The notes below the pieces were generated by a model, which made no database searches, was not told the DNA's origin, and saw only the letters and a list, made by a program, of their open reading frames with translations. Below, in pieces: positions 17,314-61,225 of a DNA stretch of 64,000 nucleotides (position 1 is its first letter; each line of letters starts with the position of its first letter). Both the position numbers and the translations under genes were made by a program. Source of the DNA: Bryobacter sp. (lineage in GTDB: Bacteria > Acidobacteriota > Terriglobia > Bryobacterales > Bryobacteraceae); the NCBI GenBank assembly GCA_022843625.1, contig JALHNH010000025.1:1-64000 (forward strand). Reading direction: 5' to 3'.

Positions 17314-19716
17314 ATGAAACGGCTCAGTATTGCGCTGCTGATTGGCATATCCACTCTTTGGACACAGACATCCAACAACAAGCGTGAGTTCTGGTCTTTC
17401 CGCTCTCCAGTGAAGAGCGAGGGCAAATCGATCGATGAGTTTCTGCAGGCGAAGCTCAAAGCAAAAGGTCTCACCCCAAACCCGAGAGCCGATCAACGCA
17501 CCTTGATCCGCCGTCTGCACTTTGACCTCACCGGATTACCCCCGCAGCCAGAAGACTATAAGCGAAGCTATGAAGACACAATCGAGCACCTGCTAGCGTC
17601 GCCGCATTATGCGGAGCGGTGGGCGCGCCACTGGCTGGATGTGGTTCGCTTTGGTGAGACCGACGGCGGGGAACACAATTATGAGAGGCTGCATGCCTGG
17701 CCCTATCGTGACTACGTGATCGATGCCTTCCGCACCGACAAACCCTACACACAGTTCATCCGCGAGCAGATTGCCGGTGACTTGATCGCACCGGACAACC
17801 CCAAGATGATCGCAGCTACGGGCTTTCTGGTGGCCGGCCCCTGGGATCAGGTAAGTGCCGAACTGAACAAAGACAAACTGCTTGCTGCCGCCGCGCGGGT
17901 GGACGAACTCGACGATATGGCGACGACCACCTTTCACACCTTTCAGGCCTTGACTGTGAATTGCGCCCGCTGCCATGATCACAAGTTTGACCCCATTCCG
18001 AGCAAAGACTTCTACCGCCTCACGGCTGTCTTCGGTGGCGTGACCTTTGGCACTCGGCGCGTGGCGAAGGACCATGAGATTCAGGCTTACGACGCGCAAA
18101 CGAAGCCAATCCGCAATCGTCTGAACGCAGCCAGCCAGAAGCTGGCGGATATCGAGGACCCTGTGCGGAGCGCTATGCTGCTCGATCGGTACCGGGCATT
18201 CGATCAGAAACGCATCGCGGCAGCACGTCGAATGCCGCTGAACCCAATTTGGAATCGAAATTCTTTTGCCGTCGATAATTCGACGCGCTTACGACTGGTG
18301 ATTACGAACCACCAAAGTGAACGGCCTCAACTGGAGCATCTGGAGTTGCAGCCGGCAGGTTTGGTGATGGATGGATGGACCGGCAGCAAAAAGGCGAGTG
18401 AAGACGAGCCGGTATACATTGAAATCGCCAACCCTGGGGCCAAGGCGATCGACACGGTCTTCTGGTGGACCGATCAAAAGAATGGACGTAATACCGGGAT
18501 GCCCAGGGTCTTCCGGCTGGAGGCATCGCGCGACGGACAAACCTGGCGTACCCTTTGCTCATCACTCGATCACATCCGGGATCTTGAGCTCGATTTGCCG
18601 CGTGTCAGCGAAGCAGAACTGGTGGCCAGGCTTGGGCAGGAAAAAGCAAATCAGAGAGCGGCCCTGCAGCAGGAGCGTAAACTAATTGAAGCAGAACTAT
18701 CCGCGATAAGCGAGCCCATGCGCCTGTACGCAGCAAAGCCTCATGCGATGGATAAGGCGTTTCTGCTGGACCGTGGCAGCGTAGCAAAACCAATCGAAGA
18801 GGTGAGCCCGGGAGCACTCAGCGCGGTGCGGCAGATCGATCCCAACCTTGGTTTGCCAGCCTCTGCCAGCGACAGCGAGCGTCGCCTGGCGCTTGCCAAC
18901 TGGATTGCAAGTGACAAGAATCCGCTTACTGCCCGCGTGCTGGTAAATCGCATCTGGTACAACCATTTCGGCAACGGCATCGTAAATACTCCCAGTGATT
19001 TTGGACTCAATGGGGATCGCCCATCCCACCCGGAACTGCTCGACTGGCTGGCAGTGTCTTTCATGGAAAACGGGTGGAGCATCAAGTGGCTGCACAGGCA
19101 GATTTTGCTTTCTGAAGCCTATCGTCAAAGCTCGGCGATGAACGAAACCGCCTTTGCCGCGGATGGTGATAACAGGATGCTGTGGCGCATGCCGCTGAAG
19201 CGGATGGATGCTGAGATGCTGCGGGACTCGATTCTGCATGCAAGCGGTCAGCTGCGTCTGGATTCTGTTGGCGGCCCGAGTTTTTTCCTCCAAAAGAAGA
19301 AAGAACGCGGAGCATTCATTTACGAAACGCTCGACAACGATGGGCCGGAAGTTTGGCGGCGCGCTATCTATCGATTCGTTGTACGTGGTGGCGAGCGAAT
19401 CATGATGGATAGCTTCGATTGTCCCGACCCATCGGTCGCAACACCGCAGCGTAGCGTCTCAAACACACCCGTACAAGCGCTTACGCTGCTGAACAACGAA
19501 TTTGTTCTGCGCCAGGCTGGCCTTTTCGCCGAACGCCTGAAGAAAGAGGCTGGGAGCAACACGAGCAGTCAGATCCGGCGGGCTTACGGATTGCTCTACG
19601 GACGCGAACCGAATTCTGCGGAGCTGAAGCTGGGGAATCAATTTCTGTCCAGCCAGCCACTGCACATCTACACCAGAGCTTTGTTTAACGCAAATGAGTT
19701 TGTCTATGTCCCATAA
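17314..19716 (+). CDS. DUF1549/DUF1553-domain secreted protein with a CxxCH heme motif
   Basis: The product has 800 residues with a signal peptide ('MKRLSIALLIGISTLW'). The DUF1549 part (about 38-240) includes 'HFDLTGLPP', 'YAERWARHWLDVVRF' and a c-type heme motif CARCH (C217, C220, H221). The DUF1553 part is near 510-770 ('LTARVLVNRIWYNHFG', 'NTPVQALTLLNN'). These proteins are abundant in Planctomycetes and Acidobacteria, usually with a fused planctomycete-type cytochrome domain at the N-terminus; that domain is missing here. The role is thought to be periplasmic redox chemistry in glycan use but is not established. It heads a three-gene run with a DUF1501 protein and a sulfatase. Confidence 0.88.
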   Translation: MKRLSIALLIGISTLWTQTSNNKREFWSFRSPVKSEGKSIDEFLQAKLKAKGLTPNPRADQRTLIRRLHFDLTGLPPQPEDYKRSYEDTIEHLLASPHYAERWARHWLDVVRFGETDGGEHNYERLHAWPYRDYVIDAFRTDKPYTQFIREQIAGDLIAPDNPKMIAATGFLVAGPWDQVSAELNKDKLLAAAARVDELDDMATTTFHTFQALTVNCARCHDHKFDPIPSKDFYRLTAVFGGVTFGTRRVAKDHEIQAYDAQTKPIRNRLNAASQKLADIEDPVRSAMLLDRYRAFDQKRIAAARRMPLNPIWNRNSFAVDNSTRLRLVITNHQSERPQLEHLELQPAGLVMDGWTGSKKASEDEPVYIEIANPGAKAIDTVFWWTDQKNGRNTGMPRVFRLEASRDGQTWRTLCSSLDHIRDLELDLPRVSEAELVARLGQEKANQRAALQQERKLIEAELSAISEPMRLYAAKPHAMDKAFLLDRGSVAKPIEEVSPGALSAVRQIDPNLGLPASASDSERRLALANWIASDKNPLTARVLVNRIWYNHFGNGIVNTPSDFGLNGDRPSHPELLDWLAVSFMENGWSIKWLHRQILLSEAYRQSSAMNETAFAADGDNRMLWRMPLKRMDAEMLRDSILHASGQLRLDSVGGPSFFLQKKKERGAFIYETLDNDGPEVWRRAIYRFVVRGGERIMMDSFDCPDPSVATPQRSVSNTPVQALTLLNNEFVLRQAGLFAERLKKEAGSNTSSQIRRAYGLLYGREPNSAELKLGNQFLSSQPLHIYTRALFNANEFVYVP

Positions 19717-58318: not shown

Positions 58319-59392
58319 CTATTTAACAGGTGCCTGAATCTTCACCAGTCGCAGCGCTTCGGTGAAGTACATATTTCCCTTGCGCCCACCCTTCTCGTAG
58401 AGCACCAGAACCTCACCCTGAGTATTAACCGCCAGATCGGAATACGCAGAAATTTCGGGATCAATCACCTCGAGCACTTTCCAGCTGCGCCCTTCATCCC
58501 AGCTCCCTTGCAGGGTCAAATTCCGACGCATCGAATTGCGACCCTTCTTCGTCCCGGCTTCAGCGTCAACATGATCGGGATTCACAAAGAGCAGTGGCTT
58601 CTTGCCACCCGGGTACCGAAGCAAACTTGCCATACAAACCGGCTCTTTCAACTCAGACACAAACTCAGGCAAAGACCAGCCGCTAGCCCCGTCCTTGCCG
58701 TAAACAACAGCCCGCCGCATTGCGTCGCTCTCGCTGCGCAGGTTCATCATCACGCGGCCATCTTTCAATTCAACCGCCACTGTCTCGCTCGGGTTGCGCA
58801 GTGGTCCCAACACGATCTCACCCGTCTTCCAGGATTTGCCCTCATCGTCACTGTAGAGACTCGACACCACACTAGGGCGGTGCGCCTTCCCGCCGGTAGA
58901 CATCCACACCGGAATCAACAACCTCCCGGTTCGCAAGCGAATTCCGTGCCCCGGTCCGGTGGCAATCACGTTCCAGTCGTACTGCTTTTTCAAAGGCTCA
59001 AAAGCGCTGGTAATCTCAACCGGCTCGGTGAAGCTCTTGCCTGAATCGACACTATGCCGGTAGAAAGCCCGCGCATAGCTCACACAGTAAATCAGGTGCA
59101 CCTCGTGTTTGCCACGCCCGGCAATCGCAACAACATTGTTTACCGTTTCAGTACCAACGTCGGCCAGCACAACGCGGTCGCTCCAGTGCTGCCCTCCGTC
59201 CACACTGCGCCGCATCACGACATCGATATCAGCCCAGTCCCCTGCCCCGTCCTTGCGCGCCTCTGCATAAGCAAGTAGAGTCCCATCGCCAAGCCTCACC
59301 ATGCCCGGAATGCGATAGGTCATGTAGCCACCCTGCCCTGCTTCAAACAGGTCCATCCCGGCCACCAGCAGTGCCGCACTAAACCAGAGCAT
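58319..59392 (-). CDS. Exported sialidase-like (exo-alpha-sialidase family) protein
   Basis: The product has about 357 residues from the ATG at 59392, which begins a hydrophobic signal ('MLWFSAALLVAGMDLF'); the track start adds 13 residues inside the ABC gene. The six-bladed propeller of sialidases is shown by 'YRIPGMVRL' near the N-terminus and four Asp-box motifs ('SVDGGQHW', 'SVDSGKSF', 'SDDEGKSW', 'SWDEGRSW'). The YRIP arginine is present; other active-site residues were not checked one by one. It would release terminal sialic acid or related sugars. It overlaps the upstream ABC ATPase gene by 14 bp. Confidence 0.82.
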   Translation of the reverse strand: MLWFSAALLVAGMDLFEAGQGGYMTYRIPGMVRLGDGTLLAYAEARKDGAGDWADIDVVMRRSVDGGQHWSDRVVLADVGTETVNNVVAIAGRGKHEVHLIYCVSYARAFYRHSVDSGKSFTEPVEITSAFEPLKKQYDWNVIATGPGHGIRLRTGRLLIPVWMSTGGKAHRPSVVSSLYSDDEGKSWKTGEIVLGPLRNPSETVAVELKDGRVMMNLRSESDAMRRAVVYGKDGASGWSLPEFVSELKEPVCMASLLRYPGGKKPLLFVNPDHVDAEAGTKKGRNSMRRNLTLQGSWDEGRSWKVLEVIDPEISAYSDLAVNTQGEVLVLYEKGGRKGNMYFTEALRLVKIQAPVK

Positions 59393-60158
59393 ACCTGCCC
59401 TCGCGCTCCACCACTTCCAGCTTTGCGCCAAACAACTCGCTCATCTTGGCACTGGTCAACATCTTGTCCTTGGGCCCGTCACCGACAATCTGCCCGCCCT
59501 TAAGAAAAGCTACGCGCTCCATCTCGGGAATGATGTCGCTCAAATGATGCGTCACCAATACGATCGTCTTGCCAGAGCGTGCCTGTGCACTCACCAGCTC
59601 ATTCAGATGCAGCTGTGCCGCGAAGTCAAGACTCGTCCCAGGCTCATCGAGCAGCAACGCCTTGGGGGTATGCACAAGCGCGCGCGCCAGCAACACTCTT
59701 CGCCCCTCGCCACTGGACAACTCATCGGTCCAGCGATCGGCCAGGTGCATCACACCCATATCGATCAGAGCGGCATCGGCAAGCTCGCGCATCTCTGCGG
59801 TTACCTCGTGATAAGGCTCGATCACGACGCTATTGAAGAAACCACCCAGCACCAGTTCACGCGCCTTGACGTCGCGCGTGCCCTTGGCCTGCCAGTCGTT
59901 CGAGATGATGCCCAGCCACTTGCGCAGGTCATCGAGATGCCAGCGCTCCTGCCCGTAGATACGAACAAAACTATCCGGGCGCAGCAACGGATACTCTTCG
60001 CGAGTGATCACTTTAAGCAGTGTCGACTTGCCGCAGCCATTCGGCCCCAGAATCGCAACATGCTCACCATCCTCAATACGCAAAGAGAGGCCGTTCAGGG
60101 CCGGCCTCTCTCCGCGAATTACTGTGATGTTTTGAACTTCGAGTAACGGCGCCGCCAC
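59379..60158 (-). CDS. ABC transporter ATP-binding protein (ModF-like single-domain ATPase)
   Basis: The product has about 259 residues. Walker A is 'GPNGCGKSTLL', the signature 'ELSSGEGRRVLLARAL', Walker B 'ALLLDEPGTSLD', and the switch histidine is in 'VTHHLSDI'. A GTG start at 60158 overlaps the peroxiredoxin stop as TAGTG; the track start is a TTG further upstream inside that gene. No permease or binding protein gene is adjacent, so the partner is elsewhere or the protein has a non-transport role, as for ModF-like ATPases. Translation appears coupled to the upstream selenoprotein frame. Confidence 0.85.
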   Translation of the reverse strand: MAAPLLEVQNITVIRGERPALNGLSLRIEDGEHVAILGPNGCGKSTLLKVITREEYPLLRPDSFVRIYGQERWHLDDLRKWLGIISNDWQAKGTRDVKARELVLGGFFNSVVIEPYHEVTAEMRELADAALIDMGVMHLADRWTDELSSGEGRRVLLARALVHTPKALLLDEPGTSLDFAAQLHLNELVSAQARSGKTIVLVTHHLSDIIPEMERVAFLKGGQIVGDGPKDKMLTSAKMSELFGAKLEVVEREGRYALV

Positions 60159-60706
60159 TAAAGCTTGCCCTTGCTCCGTGAACAAGCCGTCACCGCTCCG
60201 GTTACGTCGACTGCCGTGTTTCCCTCTTCGATGCTCGTGATCTTTCCATCGATATCCACCACAAAGGTGGCCCGGTTGGAGATCCCACGATCCTTCATCA
60301 ACGTGCCGTAGGCTTCTGCCGTCTTGCGCGTTGCAAAGTCACTCCCAAGAGCAAATTCTGGCTTGATCACATTGTCAGCCCAATACTTCAAACTGGGTAC
60401 GTTGTCAGTGGACAAGCCAATGACTTCAAATCCCATGTCTTTAAACTTTTGGATACCAGCCTGGTACCCGGTCATTTCCTTTGTTCAACCACCGGTGAAC
60501 GCAGCGGGGAAAAATGCAACCACCACTCCGTTCTTGCCCTTGTAGTCAGAAAGTTTGAATGGCTTGCCCGCTGTTGTAGGCACGCTAAAATCCGGGGCCA
60601 TATCGCCAACCTTCAGATGCGTCTTGGGCGGGGCCGTAGCCTGCCCCTGCATCATCATGGCTGAAGATAAGGTCGCGGTCGTGAGGAAAAACGATCGACG
60701 TTCCAT
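60158..60706 (-). CDS. Exported peroxiredoxin, predicted selenoprotein with UGA-encoded selenocysteine
   Basis: Two track ORFs (60485-60706 and 60158-60475) are the same reading frame split by one TGA at 60487-60485. Read through, the protein has 182 residues: a Tat/Sec-like signal ('[17 protein letters not shown]'), then an AhpC/TSA thioredoxin fold with '[18 protein letters not shown]' and '[18 protein letters not shown]'. The UGA is residue 74, exactly the peroxidatic cysteine in PxxxTxxC. The conserved active-site arginine is in '[11 protein letters not shown]'. A later cysteine (Cys175) could serve as resolving residue. A stem-loop fitting a bacterial SECIS follows the UGA. A nonsense mutation is the main alternative; the exact position, the hairpin and the well-kept downstream frame argue against it. 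Confidence 0.82.
60451..60469 (-). promoter_or_regulatory. SECIS-like stem-loop for selenocysteine insertion
   Basis: In the mRNA, GGGUACCA and UGGUAUCC form an 8-bp stem with one G-U pair and a GGC loop. The loop starts about 23 nt after the UGA. Bacterial SECIS elements have the apical loop roughly 16-37 nt after UGA with a G in the first two loop positions, and both conditions hold. The elbow of an extended lower stem is not evident. Confidence 0.65.
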
Positions 60707-60715
60707 AATGAGATT

Positions 60716-61225
60716 ATGTCAGACCCGCGCTACCCAGTTGGGACATTTTCCTTCACGCCATTCACCCAGGAATCCGAACGTCAGGCCTCAATCGCCGAGA
60801 TCCGCGATCTGCCTCGCAACGTCCGCGCTGCACTGGCATCCTTAGGCGAGAGCAAGATCGACACCCCTTATCGCGAAGGCGGCTGGACCGTTCGCCAGCT
60901 GATCCACCACATCGCCGATTCCCACATGAACGCGTTCATCCGTTTTCGGCTTGGGCTCACAGAAGACAAACCCACCATCAAGCCCTACGATGAGAACGCC
61001 TGGTCGCAACTTCCTGACTCCGCACTCCCCATCGAACACTCGCTCGCAATCATCGAAAACGTCCACCATCGCATGACTGTCATGCTTGAGCTCACCCCGG
61101 CCGACCAATTCGCCCGTGAGATCGTCCATCCGGACAACGGCGTCATGACCCTCGACAAACTGCTACAGCTCTACGCCTGGCACGGCCGTCACCACACCGC
61201 TCACATCACAAATACGCCGCGCTGA
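60716..61225 (+). CDS. DinB-superfamily protein (YfiT-like)
   Basis: The product has 169 residues and a four-helix bundle. The metal-binding histidines are in '[13 protein letters not shown]' and '[10 protein letters not shown]', and the opening '[18 protein letters not shown]' is typical of YfiT-type proteins. YfiT-like DinB proteins act as metal-dependent thiol S-transferases or hydrolases; no specific substrate can be given. It is divergent from the peroxiredoxin gene with only 9 bp between start codons, and its last 25 bp overlap the next convergent gene. Confidence 0.85.

Follow-up and report, generated by a model that had tools for sequence, protein, structure and literature searches.

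A single selenoprotein gene, read through an in-frame TGA codon, most probably occupies positions 60158 to 60706 on the minus strand of the window, the 64-kb stretch of DNA analyzed here. Judging from sequence comparisons, we hold it to be very likely that this gene is functional and that codon 74, a TGA, encodes the peroxidatic selenocysteine (Sec74) of a peroxiredoxin. Sec insertion at this codon is supported by the anatomy of the gene, by the content of the genome, and by the evolution of the family. The window was taken from a draft genome of 7.78 Mb (contig C25), with an estimated completeness of 97.85 and an estimated contamination of 5.12%.

Reading frame, fold, and second cysteine

The two minus-strand open reading frames (ORFs), at 60485 to 60706 and 60158 to 60475, share one frame. 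Between them lies a single TGA (60487 to 60485), and three codons (ACA AAG GAA) separate it from the ATG of the downstream ORF. This arrangement, and the splitting of the gene into two ORFs by standard-code annotation, were found as the original prediction had described them. When TGA is translated as Sec, the gene runs from an ATG start to a TAG stop and encodes an AhpE/BCP-like member of the AhpC-TSA family with 182 aa. The Pfam AhpC-TSA match of this product (5.7e-32) covers residues 33 to 158 and spans the TGA. The active site reads PAAFTGG-U-T, that is, P67-AAF-T71-GG-U74, with codon 74 (60485 to 60487, minus strand) at the peroxidatic position of the P67-x3-T71-xx-U74 motif. The fold is of the thioredoxin type with a PxxxTxxC/U active site, and the peroxiredoxin hallmarks P67, T71, U74, and R145 are all present. 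Upstream, the start codons of the peroxiredoxin gene (minus strand) and of a DinB-like gene (plus strand) are 9 bp apart (60706 to 60716), a spacing kept in the genus. CATAAT directly precedes the peroxiredoxin ATG, and the mRNA is possibly leaderless.

The predicted structure of the protein had a mean pLDDT of 89.9 and matched AhpE and BCP with TM-scores of 0.84 to 0.90 on target length. AhpE, BCP, and the peroxiredoxin-like entry 2ywn gave similar scores against the window protein, in which a second conserved cysteine is present. This residue, Cys175, is encoded at 60182 to 60184 on the minus strand. Homologues were collected in two scans, one over genome contigs and the other over 237 genomes of the same family, which yielded 110 loci; 98 non-redundant copies were compared. 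Position 175 was a Cys in 93 of the 98, among Sec and Cys forms. It lies within a predicted C-terminal helix (residues 169 to 181) and is the only other Cys of the window protein. We lean toward Cys175 as the resolving residue, and a U74-C175 selenenylsulfide would give the most economical catalytic cycle. A less favored but serious alternative is that Sec is inserted, yet the enzyme works in the one-Sec (1-Cys-type) manner of mycobacterial AhpE, with an external thiol as its direct reductant, and C175 is structural or forms an intersubunit bond. The nearest solved relatives do include the 1-Cys AhpE, and C175 falls outside the part aligned to them; against this alternative stand the retention of C175 in Sec and Cys forms alike and the lack of any further Cys in the window protein.

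The N terminus of the protein (60635 to 60706, minus strand) has a low pLDDT and carries a predicted, twin-arginine-like export signal. The corresponding region was hydrophobic or signal-like in 69 of 78 relatives, with RR in 16 of the 78. In the window copy, it is weakly hydrophobic with an RR motif, a pattern compatible with the Tat pathway that does not prove its use. The peroxiredoxin is quite probably exported, presumably to the cell envelope.

Codon 74 among the homologues

At codon 74, the 98 non-redundant homologues had TGA (80 sequences), TGC (15 sequences), or TGT (3 sequences) and no other codon. The recurrence of TGA at this position is far beyond chance. The original prediction proposed a check for Cys codons at this site in relatives; such codons were found, in support of the reading of the TGA as Sec at a peroxidatic site. 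The frame 3' of the TGA was intact, and its dN/dS of 0.03 to 0.05 against genus relatives indicates strong purifying selection, which acts on both sides of the TGA. A pseudogene or a sequencing error, with a Cys codon mutated or misread to TGA, would also appear as two ORFs under the standard code, but this explanation is already refuted by the TGA shared at the same codon across many families, by the selection on both sides of it, and by a conserved hairpin (see below).

In a sample of the phylum, whose members live in soil and water, 69 of 396 Acidobacteriota genomes had a match at 1e-22, mostly with one TGA. The original prediction described Sec peroxiredoxins as known in a few bacteria; the kind is indeed known, but its rarity was overstated, as the clade spans many Acidobacteriota families. 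On a quick tree, the distribution of Sec and Cys forms required 11 changes, at least 6 of them on well-supported branches, and the Cys forms were nested within the Sec forms.

Several loci had unusual arrangements. At two of them (L023:4298-5522 and L108), a Sec copy and a Cys copy of the gene lie in tandem, and genome G122 has two neighboring copies, one with the TGA and the other without. Some homologues from outside Bryobacteraceae (L064, L066, L069, L073, and others) do not have the near-universal Pro of PxxxTxxC, reading FYVLAFTGGU or FYIFAFTGGU instead. In two further homologues (G438:C20:120818-121282 and G564:C435:14906-15430), the matched region contains one TAG in addition to one TGA.

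SECIS hairpin and Sec machinery

By the bSECIS rule for bacterial SECIS elements, the apical loop lies 16 to 37 nt from the UGA and has a G within its first two bases. The putative SECIS hairpin of the window gene, GGGUACCA-GGC-UGGUAUCC (60451 to 60469, minus strand), is located 15 to 33 nt after the UGA; its GGC loop begins at 23 nt, so that a hairpin of the expected geometry, with covariation, is present at the locus. Among 45 distinct Sec sequences, 95.6% of the cells at the six inner pairs were paired, and three pairs had changed on both sides, including an A-U to U-A exchange. None of 500 shuffles reached the covariation score, which was destroyed by sliding the partner. The hairpin was missing from the Cys forms: the innermost six pairs were 20 to 87% paired there, compared with 85 to 100% in TGA forms, at similar relatedness. 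Codon usage was biased as well. In the TGA forms, Ala at codon +9 was encoded by GCT in 46 of 46 cases, against about 14% elsewhere in these genes, and Gly at codon +10 was encoded by GGT in 53 of 58, against about 20% elsewhere. Taken alone, the folding energy of the window region was unremarkable (z of -1.9, or -1.1 against synonymous recodings), and plain minimum free energy, with z values of about -1 to -2, was insufficient as SECIS evidence. The assignment is therefore based on position, covariation, codon bias, and the contrast in conservation with the Cys forms, not on folding energy.

Related apices were found in other genes of the source genome. Its selD gene has CCAGGGGUCCUGG, and a gene for a ResA-like WAxxUGC selenoprotein has CUGCCA-GGC-UGGCAG, each similarly spaced from the UGA of its own gene. 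The latter and the window gene have an identical apex (CCA-GGC-UGG). An apex common to unrelated genes suggests recognition by the SelB of this lineage. The ResA-like selenoprotein (G000:C50; L137:985-2256) scored 290 bits with NF041054, for which the cutoff is 300, and has an RR-type N terminus. Elsewhere in the window, at 19490 on the plus strand, CCAGGCTGG again follows a TGA, but this was rejected as a chance occurrence; that TGA is out of frame (ATG AAC AAC).

The source genome was searched for selA, selB, selC, and selD, and all four were present. The tRNA-Sec scored 71.5 bits, above the cutoff, with the anticodon tca according to ARAGORN. The scores of selB (362 bits), selA (464 bits), and selD (362 bits) were all above curated cutoffs, and selD has an in-frame TGA of its own (HAKAAG-U-ASKL). 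Within the 64-kb window, the Rfam scan gave no match, and there was no tRNA. This TGA gene and a tRNA-Sec were both present in three genus relatives, two of them at 1% contamination. Eight TGA-form genomes had no detected tRNA-Sec, and selB was above the cutoff in all eight; tRNA-Sec was not detected in another 11 TGA-form genomes, mostly incomplete. Over the whole family, the association between the TGA form and tRNA-Sec was weak (102/19 versus 15/8; Fisher P = 0.04) because the machinery is retained where other selenoproteins need it, and because many of the genomes are incomplete. A reassigned TGA, or its near-cognate reading as, for example, Trp or Cys, is extremely improbable: TGA terminates 19 of the 39 long non-overlapping ORFs called mechanically in the window, the homologues have Cys codons alone at the site and never Trp or Gly, and a true tRNA-Sec is present with SelA, SelB, and SelD, the SECIS being lost together with the TGA.

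In one member of the genus, G046 (98% complete, in 4 contigs), codon 74 is TGC. In this genome, we found no selA and no tRNA-Sec over the cutoff; the selB search matched EF-Tu-like proteins only, with no SelB over the cutoff. The hairpin was absent from its conserved place in the G046 peroxiredoxin gene. The source genome has a second Sec peroxiredoxin, of the PrxQ/BCP type (DDTPG-U-TKQVCDIRDNW; G000:C23:92792-93238, L134, and L138). Of eight genus members, seven carry a TGA in this gene, whereas the G046 form is stop-free. The hairpin of this second gene is less clear and does not have the CCA-GGC-UGG apex.

Proposed cycle, genomic neighbor, and related families

In the mechanism we propose, SelB and Sec-tRNA-Sec would bind the hairpin so that Sec is inserted instead of termination. 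The Sec selenolate would reduce peroxide in the cell envelope and be converted to a selenenic acid. Cys175 would then probably form a selenenylsulfide with Sec74, to be reopened, presumably, by a periplasmic thioredoxin-like reductase. The ResA-like selenoprotein is a candidate for this reductant by its family alone.

The TAG stop of the peroxiredoxin gene overlaps, as TAGTG, the GTG start of a gene for an ABC ATPase of 259 aa (59379 to 60158, minus strand; Pfam ABC_tran, 6e-24). The overlap was found at seven of seven genus loci, including that of a Cys form. When the neighborhoods of the homologue loci were compared, no ABC ATPase adjoining the peroxiredoxin was found outside the genus, and a fixed functional link is therefore unsupported beyond it. 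As for the predicted coupling of an exported Sec peroxiredoxin to an ABC ATPase, the overlap exists, but this genus is the only one in which it was seen. Translation of the ATPase might depend on ribosomes passing the UGA, making the pair a selenium-responsive operon in which selenium supply sets ABC ATPase output too. We consider this improbable; 9 nt upstream of the GTG is an AAGGG stretch resembling a Shine-Dalgarno sequence, and the Cys-form relative keeps the overlap.

Sec peroxiredoxins as such are established. PrxU, the selenocysteine peroxiredoxin of Eubacterium acidaminophilum (Sohling 2001, cited in PMC13188914; NCBIfam NF040737), also belongs to the AhpC-TSA family, and the Sec of its TxxU motif is the peroxidatic residue. 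However, the window protein scored 69 bits against the NF040737 cutoff of 270, and the acidobacterial clade, unlike PrxU, has a predicted export signal and a conserved C-terminal Cys. AhpE of Mycobacterium tuberculosis (Rv2238c), a 1-Cys peroxiredoxin, resembles the window protein in fold (TM-score of up to 0.90 on target length) and in the FFPxAFTGxC block but has Cys in place of Sec, no signal peptide, and nothing that matches the C-terminal helix containing C175. The Prx-SUH thiol peroxidase selenoprotein (NF045827) shares the thiol-peroxidase fold but has a CxxU motif (PMC13188914), and the window protein scored 42 bits against its cutoff of 298. No NCBIfam model matched the window protein above its cutoff. 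Zhang et al. (2006; PMC1794560) described a peroxiredoxin family with 12 Sec members and counted 4 selenoproteins from 3 families for Acidobacteria. Their family, like the present clade, comprises T/SxxU peroxiredoxins in Sec-decoding bacteria. They counted five Cys-to-Sec and zero Sec-to-Cys changes in peroxiredoxins, whereas the present tree calls for 11 changes and places Cys forms inside groups of Sec forms. A 2026 review (PMC13188914) lists Sec peroxiredoxins with no mention of Acidobacteria or of a periplasmic form. We found no description of an exported, phylum-wide acidobacterial Sec/Cys clade in the searchable literature, of which coverage is partial, and an earlier description is possible. 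What appears distinctive here, from the sequences compared, is the predicted export, the conserved C175, and the repeated exchange between Sec and Cys.

Annotation with the standard code would break a peroxidase that occurs through much of Acidobacteriota. The clade forms a natural series of Sec/Cys exchanges, including G046, in which both Sec peroxiredoxins were given up along with the Sec machinery. Such a series allows the costs and benefits of selenium at the peroxidatic site to be compared in near-identical enzymes. If the Sec peroxidase is indeed exported, it would bring selenium chemistry into the cell envelope of these bacteria.
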